This document shows, one piece after another, positions 35,201-56,959 of a stretch of DNA of 64,000 nt (the first letter of the stretch is position 1; each line of letters opens with the position of its first letter). The notes beneath the pieces are model-generated. The model was not told the origin of the DNA. It saw only the letters and a program-made list of their open reading frames with translations, and ran no database searches. Location of the stretch: assembly GCF_021917145.1 (NCBI RefSeq), contig NC_061067.1, positions 7,343,690 to 7,407,689 of the forward strand. Direction: 5' to 3'. This DNA is from Hypomesus transpacificus. Its lineage: Eukaryota > Chordata > Actinopteri > Osmeriformes > Osmeridae. A program made the translations under genes and the position numbers.

Positions 35201-36233
35201 TCTGTTGTGTCTGTACTCAGCATCAGTGTCATGCAGACAGGGGTGGGGGCGATGAGGCCACCTCGTCTCAACCAGCCCAAACAAAAGGTCTTCACAGCAA
35301 GGGGCCTCCATTGTGCTTTGGTTCCTCCCCTGTAGCATCATAACCCCCCTCCCCTTCCCTCCCCCCTCCCCTCTACACACACACACACTTGCCAGAAACA
35401 ATCAAAGCGTCAGCACTGACCAAATCAAAAAGCTTTGGCCGGGCCTGGGTGCCGATGTGCAGCAGATCCCGGAAGCCCTTGGTGACCAGGAGAGCGGTCC
35501 TCTCCCCTTGCCTCTCCAACAGCGCATTGGTTGCCACCGTGGTACCCATCCGTATCCAACCAATCAGAGAGGTGTCCACAGGCTGCTCCCGGAGAAAGGT
35601 CCGGCCGGTTTCCTGTGGACAGGAGAGTTCACTCCATTGGTTTTGATCAACAAAATGTTATTTAATGGTCGCATCCTGCGCTATCCTCACATTTGAAAAC
35701 AAACCGACGCCCCTACTCAGAGAAGCCCCAGTCTCACCTGCCTCCCTCTCAGAGAAGCCCCAGTCTCACCTGCCTCCCTCTCAGAGAAGCCCCAGTCTCA
35801 CCTGCCTCCACTCTCAGAGAAGCCCCAGTCTCACCTGCCTCCCTCTCAGAGAAGCCCCAGACTCACCTGCCTCCCCTCTCAGAGAAGCCCCAGTCTCACC
35901 TGCCTCCCTCTCAGAAAAGCCCCAGACTCACCTGCCTCCCCTCTCAGAGAAGCCCCAGTCTCACCTGCCTCCCTCTCAGAGAAGCCCCAGACTCACCTGC
36001 CTCCCCTCTCAGAGAAGCCCCAGTCTCACCAGCCTCCCTTCTCAGATAAGCCCCAGTCTCACCTCCTCCAGGACTCTGCGGATCCCTTCGGTAGGAGCGT
36101 CCTCGTAGTTCTGGGGGTCGTGGGACAGCAGCTTGAGCACTCTCTCCCGACCGTCCGGGAGCCTGGCGAACACGTCCGTGAACGTGCCGCCGCGGTCTAT
36201 GGAAAAGTCGAATTTCCCCTTTGTTTCTGCCAT
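22516..36233 (-). CDS. oplah: 5-oxoprolinase, ATP-hydrolysing
   Basis: Cytosolic enzyme of the gamma-glutamyl (glutathione) cycle that converts 5-oxo-L-proline plus ATP to L-glutamate. Twenty-six coding exons, high to low: 36063-36233, 35421-35612, 33708-33822, 33212-33335, 31867-32062, 31478-31643, 30893-31031, 30538-30605, 29438-29754, 29122-29234, 28243-28413, 27782-27919, 27433-27571, 27006-27118, 26493-26644, 25971-26131, 25759-25860, 25283-25457, 24818-25002, 24463-24609, 24186-24320, 23773-23922, 23510-23667, 23112-23272, 22888-22985, 22516-22671. Phases close at 1313 aa (human about 1288). The N-terminal hydantoinase/oxoprolinase half starts with the nucleotide-binding [27 protein letters not shown] and [20 protein letters not shown] follow. 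The C-terminal HyuB-like half holds [25 protein letters not shown] and [18 protein letters not shown], and ends in RRSQESV. Exon 29438-29754 has an extra low-complexity segment (about 15-20 residues longer than the human protein as I recall it). Three minisatellites sit in its introns. Confidence 0.97.
25406..25417 (-). promoter_or_regulatory. CTCF-type core motif, reverse, inside coding exon
   Basis: The minus strand reads CCAGCAGGGGGC, a perfect CTCF core. It lies in oplah exon 25283-25457 over the conserved [10 protein letters not shown] segment, so protein constraint may explain part of it. Confidence 0.45.
27985..28238 (+). repeat. minisatellite, 26-33 bp unit, about nine copies
   Basis: Units centre on GTACTGCAGAGTGTGTG followed by TATAGGAGT. 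GTACTG starts at 27985, 28017, 28045, 28073, 28099, 28125, 28153, 28181 and 28214. The array fills most of the 323-bp oplah intron between exons 27782-27919 and 28243-28413, and ends a few bases from the donor of the latter. Confidence 0.95.
28434..28465 (+). repeat. CA microsatellite near an oplah acceptor
   Basis: An imperfect CA run starts about 10 bp from the acceptor at 28414 and reads as TG on the gene's strand. Confidence 0.85.
29240..29278 (+). repeat. GA microsatellite in oplah intron
   Basis: About 19 GA units, reading as a TC polypyrimidine tract on the minus strand, directly upstream of the acceptor of exon 29122-29234. It probably serves as part of that splice signal. Confidence 0.9.
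30193..30216 (+). repeat. 24-base G homopolymer
   Basis: Uninterrupted run of 24 G in the oplah intron between exons 29438-29754 and 30538-30605. It is C-rich in the transcript. Its length is likely uncertain in the assembly. Confidence 0.9.
30355..30515 (+). repeat. GGA/GGGA purine-rich low-complexity tract
   Basis: Almost pure purine, built from GGGAGGGA and GGAGGAAAGA units that partly duplicate each other. On the minus strand it is a pyrimidine tract just downstream of the donor of oplah exon 30538-30605. Confidence 0.85.
32826..33183 (+). repeat. 21-bp minisatellite, about 16 copies
   Basis: The unit reads GTGCTGGGCTACAGTGTGGTA with T/C and G/T variants. Fourteen copies are spaced exactly 21 bp between 32890 and 33183, preceded by two irregular ones. 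It lies in the oplah intron and ends about 28 bp from the donor of exon 33212-33335. A partial duplicate of the donor region (TGTACTAACG-like) lies between them. Open frames through it encode only a seven-residue repeat and are not genes. Confidence 0.97.
35716..36062 (+). repeat. 32/33-bp minisatellite carrying copies of an oplah 5' splice site
   Basis: Units read CAGAGAAGCCCCAGTCTCAC followed by CTGCCTCCCTCT. The CAG(T/A)CTCACC core starts at 35728, 35761, 35793, 35826, 35858, 35891, 35923, 35956, 35988, 36021 and 36053. Spacing alternates 33 and 32, so there is a 65-bp higher-order unit. On the minus strand each unit contains GGTGAGACTGGG, the real donor context of oplah exon 36063-36233. 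Confidence 0.97.
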
Positions 36234-37260
36234 CCTGAAGAGATGAATATGACTGAAGCTGGTGGAGAGAGAGAGAGAGGTTAAAGAGATTTAGGACTAT
36301 AGTTGGTGAAATACATAAGCTGCATGCTTTTCCCTAGACTTGTAAAGAGGATCTGACATACAAGGTCCACATGAACAAATGAATGTAATAATGTATGCTG
36401 CAATTGGAATTTTGAAGCAAGACTTGAAGCTTAACATTATAGCATTAGACAAGTTAAGCAATGTTTAAAGCAGAGGTAAAATAACGCGTAGAGGTAAGCT
36501 ACGTCAAAAAGATCTATCAGATATTATCTCAGATCAAGCAGATACAAAAACTGGTTGACATGAGACATTGTCTTGCACCCATTCAAAAAACGATACAACC
36601 AAGGATAAGGCTGTGCGTGCATGTGCATTTAGCGTGGTGTTTTCCGTGAAATCAAGACGTCAATTTACTGTCCGGAGGAAGAGCCTACAAACTACTGACT
36701 GGTCAGGACATGGCCGTCGCGATTCAGCACCTGGTCATCGGTGATGCGCTCATACATCTACTATATCCCGCCATGCCAAACCCTTCAAATGTGTGATTGT
36801 CTGGAGTGTATCGACACCTTTATCGTAGGAAGTCAGATGGTGAACTAGCAGTTTGGTTAATTCATGAGAACATATTGTACAAAACGAGGCTATTACTAAC
36901 TGGGTTTATTGTGAACAGAAAGCGGTTAACGGGTCCAATTGACGGATGATCTCTTACCGGTATCGTCGGTGCACTTGCTGCTCTGCTGATCTAGTCTCTG
37001 ATAATCTGGTGGTCTACCGTGTGGTAAATCCTCTTCTGTCAATTCGGGAGTCTCTCTGCAGTCTCCTCCCTCTCTCAACTCGACTACTTCGTCGCCAAAG
37101 TCGAAGCGTTTTGTCAAATACTTTACTCCACCCCTCACTACAAATACCACAGAAGCAGTAACAACAGGCAGATGGTCTCTGGCCAGCGGTACTTACAGTG
37201 ACGTGTCCACCCTAAATTACACGAGGGTGAACAAAACACAAATTTAACTTCCATCCAGCA
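36234..37260 (-). promoter_or_regulatory. oplah: probable oplah untranslated first exon and promoter
   Basis: Upstream of the ATG the minus strand has a donor-like GATACCG/GTAAGAG with the exon edge at 36958. It suggests a noncoding first exon from 36958 to somewhere near 37.1-37.2 kb. CpG content rises here compared with the flanks. Inferred from splice consensus only; the transcription start is unknown. Confidence 0.4.
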
Positions 37261-38337: not shown

Positions 38338-41300
38338 TCAGTGACAGTTTTGGCACTTCGGGTGGCATCTTTGCTTGTTCACATTGCAGCGACAGCCTCC
38401 ACTTGTGTCTCCAGGTCCCTAGGAGTAGACATACGAAAGAGAAATTAAAAAATCTATAGGGGCTAAAGCAAATGTTTATTTATAAGCTAGGAAGGGTATC
38501 GCTCAGTAGTAGAGTATTTGACTGTACATCGCTTTGGATAAAAGCACTTGCTAAACGACTACATGACATTTGACTGTGCTTGTGAGGGAGGGAGGGAGAG
38601 GGCGGGTCTTACCCCTGGACCCCAACGAGGCCCTCTGGTGACCCAGCAGATCTCTGTGTGACAGACGGTGCAGCGCAGCCAATCGCAGCCCTCCTTTTTC
38701 TGCACAATGATGCCGCACTGGGGGCAGTGCATGGCCTCTCCAGACCGCACCAGAGTCTGATATGTAGGGAGGAAGAGAGAGAGAGGAGGAGGAAGACAGA
38801 GAGAGAGAGATGGAGGAAGAGAGAGGGAGGAAGAGGGACAGATATGTACAGTGAGAATGAGGAACAGAAAGAGAGATGTGTTGAAGAAAATATATCACAG
38901 AGTGGTGTTAATGCTTGTCAATATATGAACAGTAAAATCGCTACATTTATTGCAAGTACTGAACAAAAGATGAATGCACGCCAGCCCCCCTACAACCAAC
39001 CTCTTATAATTGTCAGTCCTGGCAGTCAGTGTAGTTTGGGTACAAGTGATTGTAGCTACCTTGAGCAGATCTCTGGTCCTCCTGGCTGCCGAGTCGTTGA
39101 CAGCGCGGGCCGTCAGGTCATCCTGATACTGCCTACAGTTCATCCCCTCGTGGATCGCCTGACAGAGAGAACGAAAGAGACTGACAGCTGAACGCACCTT
39201 ATCACTGTGTGGGTATAAACACTGAAGTGTGAGTCATTTGTGTGTGTGTGTGTGTACCTTGCAGAGCAGGCAGTTGTGCTTGTTGCAAACAGGACAGTGG
39301 AAGATGTTGACCGTGTCCTCGTACACACACCAGCCAGGGCAGTCTGGGCTGGCGCAGTGGTAGCTGCCCTCACAGCGAGACTCAGCCACAGACAGGCCCC
39401 GCTGCAGCCAGCGCTCGTACTCTTCCTCCGACACCAGCTGGAAGGGGGGGGAAGAGAGAGAGAGAGAAGCGGATAGAAAAGAGGGGTGAGTGAGGAACTG
39501 GCAGAGAATATCTGATTACAGGTACTATTAATACTCGTTCATGTTTGCTCCACAAGTCATAATGCAAGTCACAATGGTGACGTGTGGCAAAGCGTGATCT
39601 AGCTTGTTTATTTCAACCCCGCAGCGTATCAGTCTATTTCAAGGGGCTAGCGGCGAGTTCACTCACGGCCCTGATCTCCCTCTCCTGCAGAGTGTAGTCA
39701 CAGGCGTACGTGTCGTCTCTGTATGGACAGGCCACCTCCGGCTCCTCGCACAGGAGAATCACCGAGCGCAGGCAAACCCTGTGGACGCCACATACTTGGT
39801 TAGTCCGTCTCTGTGGACGACAACTGAGCACACTCTACCTGAGCCTTGCTTTAGCTTGCCCAGTCTGAATCAGTCCAAATCACAGTCGATCGAATTGGAC
39901 CAATCTCTCGGCTTGGCTTGTATTTAGATCAAATGCAATTCCCCAGGGATAACAGCTGGTGTTGATATTGAATATGTATTTAGGACATTTCTACTCTCAG
40001 GTTGTAGTTTTCCCAAATACATCCATTCTTCCTCCTTTCCTTCCTTGAGTTCCCCTCTGATCAAGCATGCAAGCACAGTTGAATCAAGCTATGTGACATA
40101 GGAGACTCATCAAAGGAAGAAAGAAGGCTGTATTATTGACATGAACCTTTTTACTGGCAGGAAGGTTGTATTTCCACACAAGCTTCTTCACAATAAAAGC
40201 GCTCTGACTATCTCTCCTGTGCTCGTCCATCCTGATGCTGTGGGTCTGGTGTGTCACCTGCAGAAGCAGTGGAGGCACTCCCTGAGCAGAACCCCCTCCC
40301 CAGGCTGCAGGTCCAGGTAGCAGATCCTGCAGTCCACGCAGTCCGGGTTGGGGATCAGATCCTGGCCGTCCAGCATCACCAGCCGGGCAAAGTTCTCCCT
40401 GCGCTCGGCCTCCCTCGCCTGAGAGGGGGAGAACAGTCAACATCAGCACGTCTCAAAGTAAGACGGATGCAAATGTTTTATAGTAAGTCACTGGATTAAA
40501 TGGTTGGACATCAAAACTATGACCACTCCGACAGTCAATTAGGGGTACACACACACATATGAACATACATGTTTCGATACACAAACATTATGAGATTGAA
40601 AAGTAAGATAAGAGTTTTATTTATGTTCATGTGGCCAGTTAAATACAGTGGCAATACACAGAATACATTATTTTGCCCATGTTAAAAAAGGTCAATTATG
40701 CCTTTGGAGAGTATACATAAAAAATGGCTTTGTGACATGTCAGCTGATGCCATAGTGGTTTCGATCTAGCCACAATTTCACATTGGGAACTCAGAGATCA
40801 CATACAGAGCAGGTTCTTGATGTCATCTGAGAACACAGGGTTCAAGTGGCTGTCACACACTTAATCAGCACAGCCAGGCATGGACTTTGCACAAACTTGT
40901 AGTAGTGTATACCCATGCAACAACATTTGCTATAGTTCTCATACACATTTAATTCAACAAGGATAGCAATGATACGCATATGTGCTTCAAATAATTCATG
41001 AAAGTTAAATATCACTGTCATTAAAAAGGCAGGCTATTGGCTTGCTTATGGTGCACAGCTACAGCGCATTCTATGTCACAATGGCATTTGAGTGTGTTTG
41101 ACTGCTACTAACGAACAGGACAATCCAGTAGGCTGTGTGTGTGTGTGTGTTAGTAGTCCTGGTCCAGGTTTAGCAGTAGTGAGCTGTTTGGATCAGCGGC
41201 CCCCCTCAGCTCCTCTCTTCTCCCTTTCTCCTTCAAAAAACAAAGAGACAAAAGAGAAGAGAGTCAGCCTCAGAGAGCCGATGCTACATCTCCTTCAACC

Positions 41301-44300
41301 CCCTCAGGCCTCCATTAGTTCCTACGGGAGGCTGCAGTGATGCTAATCCTACTAGCCTATTGGCATGGGCCTGCAGGAATGCACTGTTTTACAGACTGTG
41401 ATCATTAAAAATCTGAATGAAAACCCTGGTGAAAAGAAAGTTATTCTATGCTACTAACCGTTTTTACAAAGGTGTGTGTGTGTTCACCTGTGGGTGCTTC
41501 ACTCCTGCTGGAATGTCTGATGGCTGAGTGAATCTGTTCTGTGTATGAGTGTGTGCATTAATGTGTGTATGTGTGTGTGTCTGTGTGTGTACGTGTGTGT
41601 GTGTGTGTGTGTGTACATGTGCATGAGAGGGTCCTACCAGCTGGTACTGACGGACAGCCTCCTTCTCCTGCTGGATGCGGCGTAGCTCCAGGGGGTCTGG
41701 CCTGTAGCTTCCAGGGACTGTGTAACTCTCCGGACGGTCAGTGCTGCAGATCTCACAGCCTGGCCTGGTGGGCTTGTTGATGTATGTGCAGGATGGACAG
41801 GCCCAACCCTGACACACACACACACACACAAGATCCATGAATGGCCATATGACTAGGTCTGAAGTAACTCCAGTCTCTGATTAAGGCAAATTGTTAAAAC
41901 CATCATATCCAAGAACTTCAGAAATCGCAACTCTACTGTCTGAAGTCCCTTCAGACAGTAATTACACAGGACTGGAGGGATGAGGTCTGTGGTGAGTGCA
42001 CAGTACAGATTGGAAAGGAAGTCAGTAGAGAAAGTGTACCGAGTGAAAATGTGAGCATTTGAGTCGTAGGCCCATCCATACCTGAGAGCTGGATTTGTTT
42101 TGGGTCAGTGCTTGGTTAAGTTGAGGCATCTCCAGGTGGATGAGATCTCTAAGCTCACCAACGTTCTGTTTCTCTGCCCCACCTGCTGCCCTAGTGCCTA
42201 AGGGGAAGGTTACAAATTGAGTTCCAACATAAATGTCTTAGTTCTCTGAAAATATCTAATCTAAAGTCTGAAAAAGTGGATGTGTACTTAAGATGGGGAA
42301 ATTAATTTCAAAAGCTTAGTATGTATTCAAATAACATTCCGTAGGCCAGTAGTTCCCAACCCTGGTCCTCAGAGCACCTCTGTCCTGCACGTTTTAGATG
42401 TTTCCCTGCTGTAGGCTGTGTGTGTGTTGGTGTCGCACCTGTGCCGTTATTACACAGCTGGGGGGGCATGGTGCTGTACGTCCTCCAGTCCTGCAGGGGG
42501 CCACCACCACTGTTGCTGCTCCCGAGGGACAAAGGGTGAGGGTGTGAGCAGGAGGGGGGAGGGTTGGAGGGCGGGGCGAGGAGCAGGGCGCTCTCCTGGT
42601 CCTGCTGGAGCAGATGGCGAGTCAGCCGGGAGTGGCGGGCCGTCAGCAGGTACAGGAAGGCCGTGTCGCTGTCGCGACGCACGCCGTAGGAGGCCAGAGA
42701 GCGCTGGTCCGTGCACAGACACTGACTGATCACCCAGCGCTGCACCCGTGGGTGGAAACCGTACTCCAGGAACACCTGGGACCGGGGCAACACAAAGGGA
42801 ACCAAACTTGATAGGCAGACTCGAGAGTAAACAAAACCTCACAGCACGGAGACCAAAGTTGACTGGGTGAAAGAGGCTGAAAGAAAGGGAGGAAACTTTG
42901 CCGAGAATTGTGGCACGGTCAGACTGACCTGCTGCTTAAGTGCTGCGATGGTCGCGTGGGGGAAGACTTTCACCGTGACGCAACAGGACGACGAAGAATC
43001 TTCGACCACGACAGCCAAGCTATCGGAAAGACAGGATCCAACGTTAAAGCCCACCTTACTTTGATACTTGGAGAAGTTTATTTTTTCCATTGATTGTGTT
43101 TGCCGTTCCTCCTACCTAATCTCTGTCTCCTCGCAGCTCCTCACAGAGGGCTGGATCCTGAGAGCTGCCTGCTGTCTGGCCAGGGAGGCAGCCAATGAGG
43201 AGGCCGCCTGCATGTCACCATCCTCAATGGCCTTGGTGAGCTCTGCACACATCTCCTCTATGGACCGAGAGGATAGAGAGAGGGGGAAGAGAGAGAGATC
43301 AGAGAGACAGAGAGAGAGAGATAAAAGAGAGGCCAGTGATTCACTCAAGGGAACTAATACAAAGTAACCCTCTTTGTGAACAATGTGACAAGCACCAGGG
43401 CTGTGTCTGCCTATAGAGGTCACTGACTGGGTTGCACTTCCTAACCCATGAGCATGTTAACTCCAAATAGTAAGCTACTGACAACAACAATCCTTAAGGA
43501 ACACTACTCATGCCAGATACAACTCTAAAAAGCTAGCTCTTCCAACGGCACCAATGCTACCCAGGAGTGAGTTCCGTAAAAAAAAAAGAAGCCCCATACC
43601 TGTGTGAGGTAAAGGGGCAGAGTTCTGGGGTTCCGATGCTTCCAGGGGCAGCTGGCTGTCCCCCGGGGAGTGGGTCTCAGCCACTGTGAGCGGTTGGACA
43701 GAGGGAGGGATTCACATGTGAACACTGACTAGCAGCCGGACAAACACACACATGGGTTCAGATCTACAGAGGAGGAAGAAGCAAAGCTGGGGTAAGATAG
43801 ACTGACCCCTGTGCGCCTCTCGCAGCGACGACATCATCACCGTGGCCCACTCCTGGGCTTCCTGTTCACAGCGGAAGTTGAAGCTGATGCGGTCGTGAGG
43901 TGGTGTGGCTAAACTCAGTTCATGGCACTTAGAAGACTTCACCTCATAGTGCACCAACCTCAAGTCAAAGTCTGCAATGGTCTGATAGAGGGGAAGGGAA
44001 ATTACTTGATATAAGAATTATTCATTTTTTCAAATGTTTTCATCCCGAATTTGTTAGCAAATATCAGCTGACATCAGTGTTTGCCACTCTAAAACATGTC
44101 TGAAGAGTGTGTTGAAGCAAATCAAACTTTGCATTGATAAAAATGACAGCTTGCTCACACCAATGACGACACAAACACCACTAATTAAACTAACTTATTT
44201 TATTTCTGTGGTTTTACTATGTGTACAGTTTGGCTCCTGGCCACTCTCTTCCCCTGTTATTGACTCCACCTTACCACACTGCGAGCTGTTCCGCTGGCGT

Positions 44301-44535
44301 CCCGTAGCGAGAGGCGGAATTCCCCCAACTTCCCAGGGTCCATACTGAGCTGGAGACGGAGTGACGCATCTCCTGCTCCTGGAAGACAGAGCGGCCGAAT
44401 ACCAGAGTGGCAAACTGATACCCTAACCGACATTAAGACGGTGTGACAGCTCGCCTGCGAGGCCCCATAGCCTGAGATAGATGAGGACGGGTCCGTCGGA
44501 AGGGTGTGAGTCCACCCGCCAGAACTCAGCGACAT
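38338..44535 (-). CDS. sharpin: SHARPIN with PH-like, UBL, NZF and HOIL-1-type RING-IBR-RING
   Basis: Expected role: subunit of the linear ubiquitin assembly complex (LUBAC) with HOIP, acting in NF-kB signalling and cell-death control. Fourteen coding exons, high to low: 44275-44535, 43807-43981, 43600-43683, 43116-43257, 42929-43019, 42439-42775, 42082-42197, 41638-41808, 40258-40418, 39667-39778, 39258-39437, 39060-39158, 38613-38756, 38338-38418. All phases close at 717 aa. Residues 1-145 match the SHARPIN PH-like dimerisation domain. The UBL spans exons 42929-43019 and 42439-42775 ([18 protein letters not shown]). The NZF is [24 protein letters not shown]1 includes [13 protein letters not shown], the IBR includes [16 protein letters not shown], and RING2 includes [18 protein letters not shown] with the HOIL-1 catalytic Cys kept. 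The tail GGCRCNVNK and CHPKCQNCH matches HOIL-1. Mammalian SHARPIN lacks the RBR and HOIL-1 lacks the PH domain. The PH domain and the maf1 neighbour make it sharpin, not rbck1. Confidence 0.92.
38494..38570 (+). mobile_element. short tRNA-Cys-like SINE copy
   Basis: The head GGGTATCGCTCAGTAGTAGA with TTTGACTG resembles the 5' half of tRNA-Cys. It joins directly to the tail CGCTTTGGATAAAAGCACTTG with CTAAACGACTACATGA, so the middle of the element is deleted. It lies in the last sharpin intron, opposite to the gene. Confidence 0.7.
40616..40621 (-). terminator. sharpin: candidate internal poly(A) signal in sharpin
   Basis: Minus-strand AATAAA about 530 bp past the stop of the alternative exon at 41150-41230 and before the RING1 exon at 40258-40418. 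It would fit an early-terminated transcript. Confidence 0.35.
41150..41230 (-). CDS. sharpin: possible alternative terminal exon of sharpin (RBR-less isoform)
   Basis: On the minus strand a very strong acceptor (pyrimidine tract then TTGAAG/G) at 41231 opens a frame in phase 0 with the preceding NZF exon, which ends at 41638. It adds 26 residues starting [16 protein letters not shown] and stops at 41150-41152. No GT donor occurs before the stop, so the exon cannot be internal. The NZF exon also joins in phase to the RING1 exon at 40418, so this piece would be an alternative end. The product would be about 485 aa with PH, UBL and NZF only, like mammalian SHARPIN. Not proven to be transcribed. 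Confidence 0.45.
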   Translation of the reverse strand, partial: EKGRREELRGAADPNSSLLLNLDQDY

Positions 44536-46231: not shown

Positions 46232-49200
46232 ATGAAACTTTTGGAAAACTCGAGTTTTGAAGCCATGAGCTCCCATCTCTGTGTTGAAACAGGAGAATCT
46301 CACATCATTGGCAGGTAAATGACCAACTACACACCCAAATAGTATCTTCAGTGCTCACATATACACACAATTTGACTATGTTAGGGAACTATGCATGAGG
46401 TAGTTTACTGTATATCCATAAAGTTGCATAATGTAGTGTTATTAGTTATTTTAAACAATTAGTTGAACCTTACTTGCAGGTGAAGTGAAATTATATTTTA
46501 TCGTAATTTTATCATTCTAAACACAAGGTTGTCAGTGTTTTGTCCTTTTCATTGTAATACCAGATATTCAGCTGCATACACACACACACACACACACACA
46601 AATCACAACATCATCACTCCCAACCCCTGGCCCCTTATTCTGGTCTCTGCATGCACTGCATGCCTTGTCTCTGAGGGGTGTGTGTTTGTGATTGGGTAAG
46701 AGGCTCTATTTTAAAAGGCGGGATTTACACTATGAGGCCCAGAATATGTGTGAAAGACAGAGAGCAAGCACCAATATGTGGAGTAAGCACACTAGAACAC
46801 AGTGAACCACATTTACAGACAAAGTAATTCACAATCCATATGTCAGGTGGATTCCAGCTTCTGTACGTTAAGACCTTAAAAGCTATTTTTTGGCTCTGTC
46901 TTTGATGTACAGAAGACTTTGTTCTCTTGTTCCCAGACGTTAGTTTGACTGCTTCAAATGAGCAGACAACCCTCCTCAGAGGTCAAGTCATCGCACGCAT
47001 ATCTCTGTGGAGTGTGACTGGACTAAAGATCACCAATGCAGCTGATAAGCAAGCATGTTATGTCATGTCCTTGACCAAGTGACGTGCGGACAGGTGTTAC
47101 TCGATAGGACACAGCAACCGAAAACAGTAAAGTAACAGGAAAGTGCCCATAAGACCCATATTACTGAGCAGTCAGAAACTGGTTTGTTTTCACCCAAGTC
47201 TTGATCTCTGTAAATCTGTTTGCTGTTATGCAACAAGCGAGGGTTGTATTAAGCCTAGTTCCAGCGAGTCCTTGGGTTTCAGAAGGGGTGTTGCTTAAAG
47301 GTCTGCAGGCTGGGGTACAGGGGGTGGGGGCAGCTGGCCTGTGACCCTATCCTGACTGTGACCTGGGACCCAGACTGTGACAGGACATGGAGTCCTCTAA
47401 AAGGTGGCTTTGTGGCTATTTGGAGACTGTAATGGAGAGTTGTTATTGGATGCTCACACACACTCACACAGACACACATACACACGTCCCAGCTGAGTGC
47501 TGTTTGAGCTGCCAAGTTGGCTGGTTTTTAGCTGCTTACAGGATTAGTGCAGATCATGATAGCAGCTGTATGCAACCTAGCTTCAACACAATGTGACCCC
47601 CAACCAAAACTGCAACCCTCCATTTAAAATGGTTGCCCTAAGCAAAAGAGATTCAATATTGTAATGTAGCCTAATGCCAAACCAAACCCTTACAGCATAC
47701 ATTGCCCACATTCATATTTTGTAAACACACACACGCGCATGAATGTAGCCTAGTAGTGTGTATCCACACCAACTTTCCAGTGTACAGCCAGTGTACTAGC
47801 CGTCTGCTGTATCTGTTGCATTCGTTTGAATGAGTTTCCAGTCCATGTTTATTCACTGTGTAAACTGGGCTAAGTCATGTCCTCTCCCCAACCAACCTTT
47901 GCTCCTCCCTATAATTGGACAGCCCATGAAGTGAGTCTAGATGTGGATCGGTGGGGGCTTACACAACCCACTGATCTTGCATAACCTTCCAAACGGTTGG
48001 GTGGGAACACACTCAGAAACATAAACACAACAAACTCTGGCTGTGTCTTCCTCTCACCCCCTCCCTCTCTCCTTCCCTCTCTCCCTTCCTCCGTTACGCC
48101 CTCCCTCTCACTGTGGTATTTCACCCACCCTTCCTAAGAGAACACAGTGAAACCACAACACAGACATGGGGCAAACCAAACGTCACAGAGCACCAGAGTT
48201 CAAATGTCGATCGACGGTGGTGGTTGAGCACAAAACGCATGTTGTTCTCTTCACCTATCGGCCAGCTAATAAGCATTTCAAAGTATACATAGATTAGCAT
48301 TACCAAGGTTAAATCATGAAAATGGGTGTTTTATCTGCAGGATTGAGAGCTACTCTTGCAAGATGGCCGGAGACGACAAGCATATGTTCAAGCAGTTCTG
48401 CCAGGAGGGGGAGCCACATGTCCTGGAGGCTCTTTCCCCCCCGCAGACCAGCGCCACCAGCCCCCCTCAGTAAGTACACACCTCCCACAGGACACACTGG
48501 GCAATAGACCGGACATTCAGAACATTCCACATCACAGAGTGGTCATTTCATTTAGATATACATATATGTTTTTCCTGCATTATTAATCTAGATGGCCACT
48601 TTTAAAGAAAGAATTGTTCCCACGTTTTCAGCAGTGTATGCACACACACACACACAGCTGACAACAAACATTAGGCATTGTCATTGTGGTGGAACAGAAC
48701 GTAAAGAAACAAGGGAATGTTCTTGCTGTGTGTTCCTTAGGCTGGGGAAGAGCAGTGAGGACGGGGAGAACCCGCTGAGCGACAAGTGCTGCAGGAAGAC
48801 CCTGTTCTACCTCATCACCACGCTCAACGAGTCCTTCAGGCCCGACTACGACTTCAGCGCCGCCAAGGCCCACGAGTTCAGCCGGGAGCCCAGCCTCAAC
48901 TGGGTCCGTTTGACCTTTTACAGACGCGCACACACACTTCTATATGCACACATACACATGCACTGACACACTGTATATATACACACTGTATATACATGGA
49001 CACACACAAACTAAGATATATACACACACACACACACACAGAAAGATGCCCCCAGGAACTAAAAGAAAACCAAAGAACACCCAAGCTTTAAAAAAAATAA
49101 TATATTTTGCCGGCCAGTTTATTACTGTTTGAACTGAGAGAAGGGATCTGTCCCATCACTCCTTATATCATCTCAACATTTGGATGTTCCGTCTCCCCCA

Positions 49201-49968
49201 GGTGGCGAACGCGGTGAACAGCAGCCTGTTCTCAGCTGTGGGGGAGGAGTTCAACGCCCTGGGGCCTGAGCTGTGGAATGACATCGACCAAGAAATCCAC
49301 CTGCAGAGCTGTGACATTTACAGGTAGGTTAGTGCGTGTGTGTGTGTGTGTGTGTGTATGAAAGCTTCCTACATCTTCAGCCAGTATCCGTGGCCGTCCC
49401 TAAGAACGTTTTCCTCCCTGTGCGTAGCTACAACCCAGACTTGGACTGTGACCCCTTCGGCGAGGAGGGCAGCCTCTGGTCCTTCAACTACTTCTTCTAC
49501 AACAAGAAGCTCAAGAGGATTGTGTTCTTCACCTGTCGCTCTGTCAGGTCAGCATTCTCAGTGGTAACCTCTTTTCCCTCCCCTGACTGACCTCCTGTGT
49601 AAAAGAGCCTGATCGTGCTATGCACTAATGGGTTTTTTTGCATTGGAAAAAATGTCTGATCTTCTTGTTTGTTTATTTGGCCTTTTTTGGTTGGTGACCT
49701 CAGTGTCCTGAGTGGATGGGGTCGCGGTTGCACGGACAACGAGCTGGACATGGAGTTGGATGATGAGGAGGAGATGGATGGATTCACTGAGGACAGGTGG
49801 GGTCACACCACTTTCAACCGCCCTTGCTTTTCCTACATTCTTAACTTCTTTTGCAGCATTTTAGAATTTTGGTGTTGAAGCCAAACTGAAGTCATTTTAC
49901 TCTTGTTACTTATTGTAATCTTTCTCTCTGTCTCTGCGTTTAGGTTCCCCAGAGCCCTGTGTGTCTAG
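46232..49968 (+). CDS. maf1: MAF1, repressor of RNA polymerase III
   Basis: Nutrient- and TOR-responsive repressor that binds RNA polymerase III and blocks its engagement with TFIIIB; shuttles between cytoplasm and nucleus. Seven coding exons: 46232-46314, 48341-48469, 48741-48903, 49202-49323, 49428-49547, 49704-49796, 49944-49968, in phase, 244 aa (human 256). The start [20 protein letters not shown] is nearly identical to the mammalian one. The conserved signature blocks include [22 protein letters not shown], split here over residues within exon 48741-48903, then [14 protein letters not shown], and [20 protein letters not shown]. The acidic tail ([13 protein letters not shown]) is kept. 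An untranslated exon ends near 45675. Intron 46315-48340 holds only a CA repeat near 46577 and nothing else recognised. The 3' UTR runs to 51.1 kb. Confidence 0.97.
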
Positions 49969-52621: not shown

Positions 52622-54459
52622 TTAACATTCACATTTTACACTGACCTGGTGATGTGACCTTGATCTTGGTACTGGATCTTGGATCTTGGACTTTCGTCCT
52701 CTCTCTGGGCCTGTAGAATGGTCCGGCTCTGAAAGACAATATGACCGTGAATTCTTGAAGCAGGGTCTTAGTAACTCCAAAAATGTATTATTTACTTCCT
52801 GAAAACTAAATTCAATATTCACTCACTACCAAACGTGACCATTCTTTCACAGCTTTCCGAACGCTTCAGTCCTTCTCGTTTCCATTTTTTCCCACCATCT
52901 TCCAGGTCCTTGACAAAATGATAGTCTCTCTGCAAGCTGCGCGATCGTTGTCGTTTATGAGGCCTCCTCTCCTCACATTTTTGTTTTCGTTTTTTATTTC
53001 CTTTCTTTATCTCAGGCAGCGAATCACAACTTTTCACACTGGCAAGTGGAGTTTCTTTCTTTAGACCATCTACCATATAGTCCCAGGGTGGCTCTGCTGC
53101 CCCTGGCAAGATTGCATTTCTCTGGATACCTGATATTTCTTTGTATCTGTTCACCACAACCATCTGCCACCAGGCAAATGTCCATATCATTTCCCACTGT
53201 AACTTGGATCCATGATGACGTTTCACGAAGGTGAGGAACCAAATAGAGAACCTTACATTCTGAATCTCCATGTCCACGTTTATAAACAGAGTTTTCTCCA
53301 TACTCTCTTTGGGGGGCTCAGGTCTGGTCACAAGAAACCCAGATCCTTTGACTTTCTGCACTTCTGGGGTCACAGGATAACATTTAGATGGAATTACAAC
53401 GTTGACAATTTTTGAGGCATACATGGTTTATGTGGTATAATACAATAGACCACACGTTCACAATTTTGATATGAAAAAGTGACGTGTAATTGAATTTCAA
53501 GAACTTCTGTGACTAAAATAGAGTTGCTTACCAGTTGCGCTGTTCCACTCGGTGGAGACCAAACTCAGTGCAGGCTGTTGGGGTACCTTGTCTCCCACAT
53601 ATTCTGACAGCTCAGGCAGACACATGATGTCCTCCTTCTGATACATCTGCTCTTCCACTACTTTACCTCCTTCATGCTCAACAAAGGCAGATTCCTCTTT
53701 GGACATTTCCATGTTTGTAAAGTCTTCATTGTTTCTGAGACCAATGTGTGGCCCACAATGGAGTTTCAGTTCCTCTTGTTCCCTAAGAAGCTGCTCCAAC
53801 TGGGCTTTGGATTGGTTGCAGGACATTGCCAGTCGTTCCATCCTCACGTCATATTGCTCTCTCATTTCCAAGACTACGTTCTTGGTGTTGAGGCATTCTC
53901 CGCAATTCTCTTCCACCATCTTCTCTATCTTCTCCAGGAGCAAGGTGACCTCTTTATGGTCTTCAGTACAAGTGTGGTACCTGTTCCCACATCTCTCCAG
54001 GAGGGCCTGGAAAGCCCTTCCAGCGTTCTCAAGGTGGTATTCAATGCTTCTCCCATTGAGACAACTGGGTCTGGTGAACAGCAGTATGGTCTGTCTCCAA
54101 ATTCTTGGACTGAAAAGACGCTCGAGTCGTCGAGCAATACGTTGGTTCCACTCTGGGTCCATAGACACAGGGATGGTCAGGAGGAGGGCATGGGGTTCTG
54201 CGTTCGGGCCATACTGACCCAGACTGTGACAGGCGTCTGCCAGGACCCTGAGGGGGGTCGCCTCCGAGCAGGATGGGTCCCAGCCTGGGCTGTCCACCAC
54301 CACAACACTTTTGGTATGCACCTCACCCGTGCCAAGGCTGTTCCACTGTGTGCCAGCATTCACATCAAATGTCTTCTTGCCCAGGATGATGTTGCCCACA
54401 GAACTTTTGCCGGTCCATTCCTCACCAAACACAATGATTCTTAATGTGGACAAGGCCAT
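52622..54459 (-). CDS. GIMAP/AIG1-like GTPase with a basic C-terminal extension
   Basis: Member of the AIG1/GIMAP GTP-binding family, associated with immune and membrane functions; the precise role here is unknown. Exons 53532-54459, 52827-53363 and 52622-52728 join in phase to 523 aa. Start MALSTLRIIVFGEEWTGKSS: the P-loop GEEWTGKS is residues 12-19 and the G3 motif DSPG is 56-59. At the G4 position the sequence reads FTRPSCL (128-134), without the Asp usual in GIMAPs. A coiled coil follows at about 195-235. Exon 2 has an aromatic-rich block (FSIWFLTFVKRHH, WEMIWTFAWWQMVVV) and then strongly basic KKRKQK and KRQRSRS stretches that may be nuclear signals. Exon 3 is RS-rich, with two possible frames depending on the acceptor. 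Human GIMAPs are on chromosome 7, so this is a lineage-specific insertion in the block. No membrane anchor is clear. Confidence 0.8.
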
Positions 54460-56959
54460 GTTGCAAATTCAGAATGGTATTCCTGACCTGCATGGTAAGC
54501 AGAATGTTAAACATTGCCCTGATATTTTATAGCACAACACAGCTGTTTGAATTTCCTTGCATGGGGATTAACAAAGTGAAGTGATCGACTTTGGGCTATT
54601 CAGCAACCCGATAATTGTGTCACCAAACAGGACTTTTGTATAGTCTACCACTGTGACCATTTTAATTTCCTTCTTAAGTAGCCTACAAAGTAGCCTACAA
54701 AATGGCTTACAAATCACTGTGTTGCATTATCCGGCCTGTTCCTATCAACAAAGTTGGATTGCCAGGCCTACAACATTCCATCACGGATCCCACTCGTATG
54801 ACATAAACACGACCAAGCGATTACTCTGAGCTTGCACAAAAAGTACATACGATCAGTTACGTTTTTTCTATAGCTGTCCCTTTGTGCCAATAACCTCTAT
54901 TTATATCAGGACAGTCAATTGCCATCAAATCACGGTCCACATCATAGACTAGGCTTGTCTAAAACTCCGCATATCATTTGAGAGAAAGAAGATCCACCAC
55001 ACAAAGTGCTAACTCCTATTAAAGCTATATATCTTAAACCATTGTAAGGCAACAATGTTTTCCAAACCTGTTTCAGCCTGGTTTTGTTGTTCACTCCTGG
55101 ACAACTTTTCACCCGTCTATTTTATAACGTTTAGGCACTTTCAGTTTCGTTTGCAATGGTAAATTGGCGTTGTTAGAGATAATTCCAGTATGGGCCACCG
55201 GGGCACGGGCCACTTGGGCACAGGCCCCTACTCAAATCACTTTTTGTTTCTTCCTTGCTGCATACAAAATGTGTGTAACACAATGCACTGTAAAAACTCC
55301 ACTTCCTTAACCCACCATACAACAGTTGAGGGACTTAAGTTTGATATCAACTTTGCCAGGACATCAATAGTTAATGTGAGCGCATTTTTGGGGGGCATTA
55401 ATTTGAGCAAATATACATTGAGTTCATGTAATAATGTTGTTATTATGTTTGAGTCTAAATAAAATGCTCGTTAGGCCTCTTTAGTTTCTGAATGTGTTCT
55501 TAACCTACCTCAATTCTGACTTGCCGACACCTGGACTTCTGTGTGAGCGCTGCAGTGGCAAGCACAGAAGAACGCATATAGGGAATTCTGCGGGCATGCA
55601 TCAGTTTGTGTTTTCGGTTCAACTGCTTTGATTTTACAAGCATTGATTGGGATATTGCATTTCTTTTTTCCGGGATTATCAATTTAAATGAATGCACTGA
55701 CTAATAAAGTAAATTGTTAAAACTTAAATTTGAGATTTTACTGGGGCACAGTAGATTTATAAAAAGGGTCTAGCGATGACGCCCCTGGTCAAAAGACTTA
55801 GTCAAATAATTAAGTTAATCAAATATAACTTCACATTTTCAATATTATTTTATACAATTTCTGTACATTTTGTTAAGAATAATTCTAACATGTTAGTATT
55901 TTATATGGCAAACATCTCTAGTCTGTCTACTCTTGCGGGTAAAGTAGCTGGAGTGGTATCACAGTTGTTTACACCAGGGGATAGAAACTAAACTGGGCCC
56001 GTGTCGACAGTGCTTGATGAATGAACTTCTAAGGCATGCTTTCCATCTGCTCTTTCGCAAAAGAAAAGAGACACGTTAGTACAGTAAGCTACTGCTATTA
56101 AATGGTGGTGGTGTGGAGAAGATATGCACAATGACTATGACTTCAAAAAGTAATAAATGATGATAATACTATTAAAAAGCCATTAACTCATATCATAATT
56201 AATCAATCATATATCATAAATGAACACCAAAACCACAAAATATTTTAAACCTACATAGGGCCCGGCAAGATCAGACGATACATTTGTCTGAATGTTTTTT
56301 TTTTTTTAATAAAAAACGTAATTTTGCTATAAGTAGCCTAAAAAAGTGTAATATTCAATTTTCCTAAAAAGTTACTTTATTTATACATTTTAACTGATCT
56401 TATCAGAGGTCTAATGCAGAGAAATCTTCATAAAACAAATTTTCCCAGTCTCCCCTAGATTGGATCAGAAATCTTCCACTGTGTAACCATTGAGTTAAGT
56501 GTGTAATTCTATGGCACTGTGTCAGGTCATTTGTCGCATATATAATACGTCATCTGCACGCACCATCATCATAAACTTTGGAGTTGGGGCTGTACCTATG
56601 GCTGTTCCTTCCTGATTAGAAACTCGTAGACGGGCTGTCTAGTTAGCTAGCTTACGTGATGAGAAGCAACATTATCTATTTGACCTGGTAGATATTTGCA
56701 GTCATCGTGAAATTGTTTCTGGACGTTTATTGTACATATCGGCTATGCCTATAATATCTTTTTTTAGTTTATTAGAAGCCATTTCAAATTGGTGTCAGTA
56801 TCAAGAACTATCAAACGTTTGCGACCTTCGCATCTGTGGCAGAAATGTGTGTTAGTGAAAAGTACAACAGGAAACTCGTCTACTTAGTCTTTGTGAAATG
56901 TATTTTGGTTAATTAATGGGTGCAACATCTCGGGTAGTTTTGATCTTCGTCGTGTCGCT
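54460..56959. other. intergenic DNA between the GIMAP-like gene and lrrc14
   Basis: No gene recognised. A short GTAGCCTACAAA duplication lies near 54678. Two stretches at about 55190-55240 and 55735-55790 share GGGGCACAG/GGGCCAC-type words and may be flanks of a decayed unclassified element. The segment 56560-56950 is probably the lrrc14 promoter and 5' UTR. Confidence 0.4.

Follow-up and report, generated by a model that had tools for sequence, protein, structure and literature searches.

Mammalian SHARPIN is described, in the accessible part of the source, as a regulatory LUBAC subunit with PH, UBL and NZF domains only (PMC9084887), whereas the locus analysed here goes on from such domains into a HOIL-1-type helix-RBR. 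The question that it raises is whether one vertebrate gene encodes both, and if so, how such a protein is related to the two LUBAC subunits that it resembles and what it might do.

Structure and neighbourhood of the sharpin gene

The window, that is, the whole stretch of 64,000 nucleotides of Hypomesus transpacificus DNA to which all positions refer, carries the coding region of sharpin on its minus strand, from 44535 to 38338 (Table 1). As the original prediction had proposed, 14 exons join in phase to 717 aa: the joined exons amount to 2154 nt (717 codons and a stop codon), the splice sites all carry the expected dinucleotides (AG at 13/13 acceptors and GT at 13/13 donors), internal stops are absent, and the window contains no N. 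Just upstream, a six-codon ORF, MMSMLA (44555-44535, minus strand), was noticed by eye, whose stop codon shares bases with that of the sharpin start (TAATG); it is a possible element of translational control, or the true sharpin start may lie further on.

The position beside MAF1, used here as a mark of SHARPIN, was found as well, with Maf1 encoded upstream on the opposite strand, and Pfam detected pieces of an oxoprolinase gene downstream of sharpin and pieces of a forkhead gene further along, the neighbour scan having yielded a Pfam match in 4 of 10 and 3 of 8 pieces. Human SHARPIN presumably adjoins MAF1 too, and we take MAF1, OPLAH and FOXH1 all to lie near SHARPIN on human 8q24.3.

Several other features of the surroundings were recorded. 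A 47-codon ORF (MGLCTFMEKLLVPIK...; 45464-45321, minus strand) is located in the sharpin-maf1 interval, close to where CpG o/e is highest; with 0 matches in Pfam or PDB sequences, it may be a product of chance or a small protein. A GIMAP-like gene of the AIG1 family (5e-23) occupies 53500-54468 on the minus strand, near the 3′ side of maf1, and a repetitive stretch at 35650-36280 (plus strand), open in all three plus-strand frames, is perhaps a minisatellite within an oxoprolinase intron. A search of the whole window against Rfam gave nothing at gathering score.

Table 1. Positions of sharpin, its exon groups and associated features in the window
Feature	Position	Strand	Basis
sharpin, 717 aa, PH-LTM-UBL-NZF-helix-RING1-IBR-RING2	38338..44535	-	exons, phases, splice sites, domains
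Exons 1-3: SHARPIN PH domain (aa 28-146) and linker	43600..44535	-	Pfam Sharpin_PH; 4emo
Exons 4-6: LTM (aa 175-214), UBL (about 222-300), linker	42439..43257	-	Pfam LTM; 5y3t chains
Exon 7: linker preceding NZF	42082..42197	-	exon joining
Exon 8: NZF core (aa 403-431), tail and first half of HOIL-1-type helix; ends at codon 459	41638..41808	-	HOIL-1 alignment
Candidate alternative terminal exon within intron 8, 26 aa and stop	41150..41230	-	by eye; AATAAA at 40621
Exons 9-10: second half of helix, RING1 with 8-residue Zn-loop II	39667..40418	-	HOIL-1 alignment, gapless over the 8/9 junction
Exons 11-12: RING1-IBR helix, IBR, IBR-RING2 helix	39060..39437	-	IBR 34/51 identical to HOIL-1
Exons 13-14: RING2 with C667, W669, E678, Zn2/Cys6 cluster and C-terminal H717	38338..38756	-	RING2 53/65 identical to HOIL-1
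maf1, head-to-head neighbour, ends approximate	46232..49968	+	Pfam Maf1 3.5e-17 on one piece; start and stop by eye

SHARPIN and HOIL-1 domains in one predicted protein

The N-terminal half carries the features of SHARPIN. The Pfam model Sharpin_PH (PF16764) matches aa 28-146 at 7.8e-54, with 181 bits against a cut-off of 27 bits in a search with this one protein, and the PH domain is identical to the SHARPIN PH domain 4emo at 34 of 104 residues (2.6e-10). An LTM, which had been left unnamed originally, follows at aa 175-214 (Pfam, 5.1e-15), and the RanBP-type zinc finger model PF00641 identifies the NZF at aa 404-428 (7.8e-7; 28.7 bits against a cut-off of 27). The LTM-UBL region was compared with the 5y3t chains, taken as mouse from the available part of PMC6044281, and scored 110.2 bits with SHARPIN (5y3t_C) versus 95.6 bits with HOIL-1 (5y3t_A), with identities of 65/120 and 53/124, respectively; at the 68 sites that differ between the two chains, sharpin has the SHARPIN-type residue at 26, the HOIL-1-type residue at 13 and neither at 29. 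The SHARPIN and HOIL-1 chains are themselves identical at 53/121 positions in LTM-UBL, which is the same distance as that between the window protein and HOIL-1. An RBCK1 orthologue would have an RBCK1-type LTM-UBL and no PH domain, whereas here the PH domain is present and the LTM-UBL is SHARPIN-like. The protein also departs from the mammalian form of SHARPIN, which ends after the NZF and has no RBR, in that an RBR continues in frame; we take ending after the NZF to be a trait of the mammalian form and not a defining one of SHARPIN orthologues, and if SHARPIN were defined by ending at the NZF, the window protein should be called a SHARPIN-like RBR protein.

The C-terminal half matches the HOIL-1 RBR (8eaz) over aa 439-717 without a gap, at 3.6e-116 and 392 bits in a search of PDB sequences, and the next RBR protein among the matches listed, the best 60 of 226, is ARIH2 with 24 bits; as a sequence match, that to the HOIL-1 RBR is far beyond chance. 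Together with the alignment of C667, the Cys of EGCDW, with HOIL-1 C460, this upholds the earlier claim of a complete HOIL-1-type RBR with the EGCDW Cys at the HOIL-1 active site. Identity to HOIL-1 amounts to 165 of 279 residues in the RBR, rising from the helix and linker (17/47) through RING1 (28/52) and the IBR (34/51) to RING2 (53/65), and the NZF aligns without gaps in its core (21/29 identical) and tail (15/28). The NZF moreover keeps NKPTRP and YXP; in HOIL-1, it is KPTR and YXP that orient the NZF core and tail (available part of PMC10511788). The generic Pfam models for IBR, RING and ubiquitin gave matches below their curated cut-offs only. A query built on the RBR produced 4 pattern matches in viral contigs and 31 in genome contigs, with 0 confirmed in either, as expected for an animal gene.

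HOIL-1 differs from other RBRs in three respects, an 8-residue RING1 loop, a Zn2/Cys6 cluster, and a Trp that replaces the usual catalytic His together with the C-terminal His510 that substitutes for it, according to the accessible parts of PMC9834252 and PMC9853177, and all three have counterparts in the window protein. Its RING1 Zn-loop II has 8 residues, as C-x8-C at the positions of HOIL-1 C323/C332, and the length given for this loop in the part of PMC9834252 that is available is 8 residues in HOIL-1 versus 2-4 in all other RBRs. The Zn2/Cys6 pattern C-x19-C-x-C-x6-C-x3-C-x2-C occurs once, at 680-717 with the terminal His included, in the HOIL-1 spacing. W669 and E678 correspond to HOIL-1 W462 and E471, and the C-terminal H717, not named in the original prediction, to the catalytic H510, by which HOIL-1 is made specific for hydroxyls and not lysine (PMC11962058, accessible part); the HOIL-1 active site, namely the catalytic Cys, a Trp two residues on, a Glu and a His as last residue, is thus present in full. 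All 25 of the HOIL-1 cysteines compared are conserved, and the window protein also has the catalytic Cys, a position occupied by Ala in the crystallised HOIL-1 chain. For Cys and His together, 31 of 33 are conserved, the two lost, H265 and H396, both being His.

At six sites at which mutations alter HOIL-1 activity or activation, as taken from the available part of PMC9834252, the residue is the same at C460, L435 and H510 and conservatively changed at the others (V284I, I358L, M438L). Thr takes the place of HOIL-1 D385, with which H510 is in contact while the enzyme is at rest, and other changes are S365 to Cys, D458 to Glu and I326 to Arg, I326A being silent in HOIL-1 according to the same part of that source (PMC9834252). 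A structure model of the NZF-RBR part, predicted from the single sequence, reached a mean pLDDT of 40.4 and a pTM of 0.22, too poor for active-site geometry.

Intron 8, duplication and competing explanations

The junction between exons 8 and 9 (41638/40418) sits within the helix preceding RING1, and because the HOIL-1-like NZF tail coded by exon 8 runs gapless into exon 9, the two exons make most sense if spliced together, so that a transcript joining 41638 to 40418 would be expected. This continuity also speaks against a reading that we regard as unlikely, namely that the locus has two products, most transcripts ending in intron 8 to give a short, mammal-like SHARPIN while the RBR exons are rare or come from a second promoter. 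What recommends such a reading is the in-frame candidate last exon with the AATAAA downstream of it (Table 1), an unproven candidate that would give an RBR-less short form and could leave much of the mRNA without the RBR, and the precedent of HOIL-1, which exists in a second splice form, RBCK2, named in paper titles as a splicing variant that inhibits the ligase activity of RBCK1. However, the candidate acceptor is middling, with a score of 3.0 where the real acceptors range from -3.7 to 12.7, and at least 6 of the 69 AGs in intron 8 score above it (the best, 7.5, at 41268). Similarity of the candidate exon to exon 9 was not above that of shuffles, 199 of 2000 reaching its score as DNA and 429 of 2000 as protein, nor was similarity to HOIL-1 (480 of 2000 as protein), and the two A[AT]TAAA words found in intron 8 compare with one or two expected by chance as an estimate. 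With neither the acceptor ranking nor the shuffles beyond chance, the exon stands as a candidate only. A second promoter in intron 8 likewise lacks support, because CpG o/e is low there (0.09-0.32 at 41.5-40.6 kb versus 0.72-1.31 at 45.7-44.2 kb), and the scan revealed no CpG-rich stretch in this intron, in a contrast that is weak, with some coding stretches at 0.70-0.75.

If the gene is one transcription unit, its origin can be considered from the mammalian proteins. The original prediction saw in this gene the pre-split or undivided form of two LUBAC subunits. However, mammalian SHARPIN and HOIL-1 both carry LTM and UBL (accessible part of PMC6044281), which are homologous, and both have an NZF, so that they are duplicates rather than halves, and for the same reason a duplication followed by unequal loss accounts for them better than fission does. 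What stands of the earlier interpretation is the single gene, its SHARPIN identity and the HOIL-1-type RBR with catalytic residues kept; the wording "pre-split" or "undivided" does not. The duplication would predate the divergence between this lineage and mammals, since the window protein is about as distant from HOIL-1 in LTM-UBL as mouse SHARPIN is and lies nearer to mouse SHARPIN. Exon structure was compared by way of RBCK1 patient mutations, and ten of their codons agree with the sharpin exon boundaries at HOIL-1 codons 195, 252, 306, 343 and 403: codons 165, 185 and 190 belong to RBCK1 exon 5, 222, 241 and 243 to exon 6, 298 and 299 to exon 7, and 352 and 387 to exon 9 (PMC5808061). These ten are the distinct placeable entries with an exon number in the visible part of the table of that source, and they fix intervals rather than exact boundaries, codons 165-190, which align poorly, testing boundary 195 only; left out were c.456+1 (E5/6), which conflicts with the exon-5 entries, and two exon-2 entries and the exon deletions, which lie beyond the alignable part. 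The agreement fits duplication of a whole gene and is also compatible with a later exchange of exons.

Such an exchange is the core of a second alternative, a secondary fusion in which recombination in this lineage gave an RBR-less SHARPIN its NZF-RBR exons back, with rbck1 as the donor. The SHARPIN-like N-terminal and HOIL-1-like C-terminal halves are what it would produce, and boundaries compatible with RBCK1 exons 5-9 are expected of copied exons, yet the RBR has diverged so far from HOIL-1, above all in the helix (17/47), that a recent event is unlikely, and retention can do without any event, given that the rest of the architecture is common to the two mammalian paralogues; we hold fusion to be quite unlikely. 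Alternatively, an expressed RBR might have no catalytic activity and act as a scaffold, on an early step to loss, as the RBR-less mammalian SHARPIN (PMC9084887, in its available part) suggests that the activity is dispensable. In a pseudo-enzyme one would expect some of the key residues to be missing, but the catalytic Cys, the Trp, the Glu, the C-terminal His and every compared Cys are intact, and among the stretches aligned with PDB chains the catalytic RING2 shows the highest conservation, which makes a dead RBR highly improbable.

Predicted activity and comparison with known systems

Based on these findings, we consider it probable that one SHARPIN-orthologous gene encodes PH-LTM-UBL-NZF together with a complete HOIL-1-type RBR, that an LTM-UBL-NZF-RBR gene was duplicated to give rise to SHARPIN and HOIL-1, that the RBR was kept in this lineage and lost in mammals, and that the protein works through a HOIL-1-like mechanism; the retention here and the mammalian loss are steps that we infer. 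Because the HOIL-1-type catalytic residues are kept, ligase activity is the natural prediction, and catalytic activity, ester specificity and a role in LUBAC would be expected from the sequence likeness to HOIL-1. By homology, LTM and UBL would hold the protein in LUBAC beside HOIP and HOIL-1, where the NZF with its tail, the helix of exons 8-9 and the RING1-IBR site could bind nearby linear or K63 ubiquitin and the RBR would thereby be switched on. RING1 would then take UBE2L3~Ub and the ubiquitin would be passed to Cys667, upon which His717, as base, might activate a hydroxyl to give ester-linked mono-ubiquitin, as in HOIL-1, the putative targets being components of LUBAC, further proteins or glucosaccharides.

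More tentatively, and with rather more doubt than confidence for the proposal as a whole, LUBAC in this lineage might contain a pair of ester-forming ligases of the HOIL-1 type, of which one is linked to the SHARPIN PH domain; SHARPIN might have been an enzyme in the vertebrate ancestor, mammalian SHARPIN, known as a non-enzymatic helper, being the remnant after loss of the catalytic half, and the candidate terminal exon of intron 8 may already yield a short, mammal-like form, as RBCK2 is for RBCK1. An RBR-bearing SHARPIN would explain why LTM, UBL and NZF are common to SHARPIN and HOIL-1. A SHARPIN with an intact active site of the HOIL-1 type would mean that knocking down sharpin in such animals may take away not just a scaffold but a further ester-forming ligase, and its RBR, as a second natural example of the HOIL-1 type, would lend itself to tests of which residues determine hydroxyl specificity. 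Among the titles and abstract openings of a partial literature collection, no report of an RBR in SHARPIN was found, and sharpin models with an RBR may already stand in gene databases.

Among known systems, mammalian SHARPIN shares with the window protein the PH domain, the LTM, the SHARPIN-type UBL, the NZF and the maf1 neighbour, and differs in the helix-RBR that follows here. HOIP (RNF31) and fly LUBEL, the linear-chain ligases, are likewise RBR ligases of the same pathway as far as the accessible literature describes them; HOIP, however, has an LDD, for which the window protein leaves no room because it stops at the last residue of the Zn2/Cys6 cluster. The closest counterpart in the catalytic half is HOIL-1/RBCK1, with the same order of LTM-UBL-NZF-helix-RBR, the same 8-residue RING1 loop and Zn2/Cys6 RING2, equivalents of C460, W462, E471 and H510, and compatible exon boundaries, while the window protein differs from it in having an additional N-terminal PH domain and an LTM-UBL nearer to that of SHARPIN.
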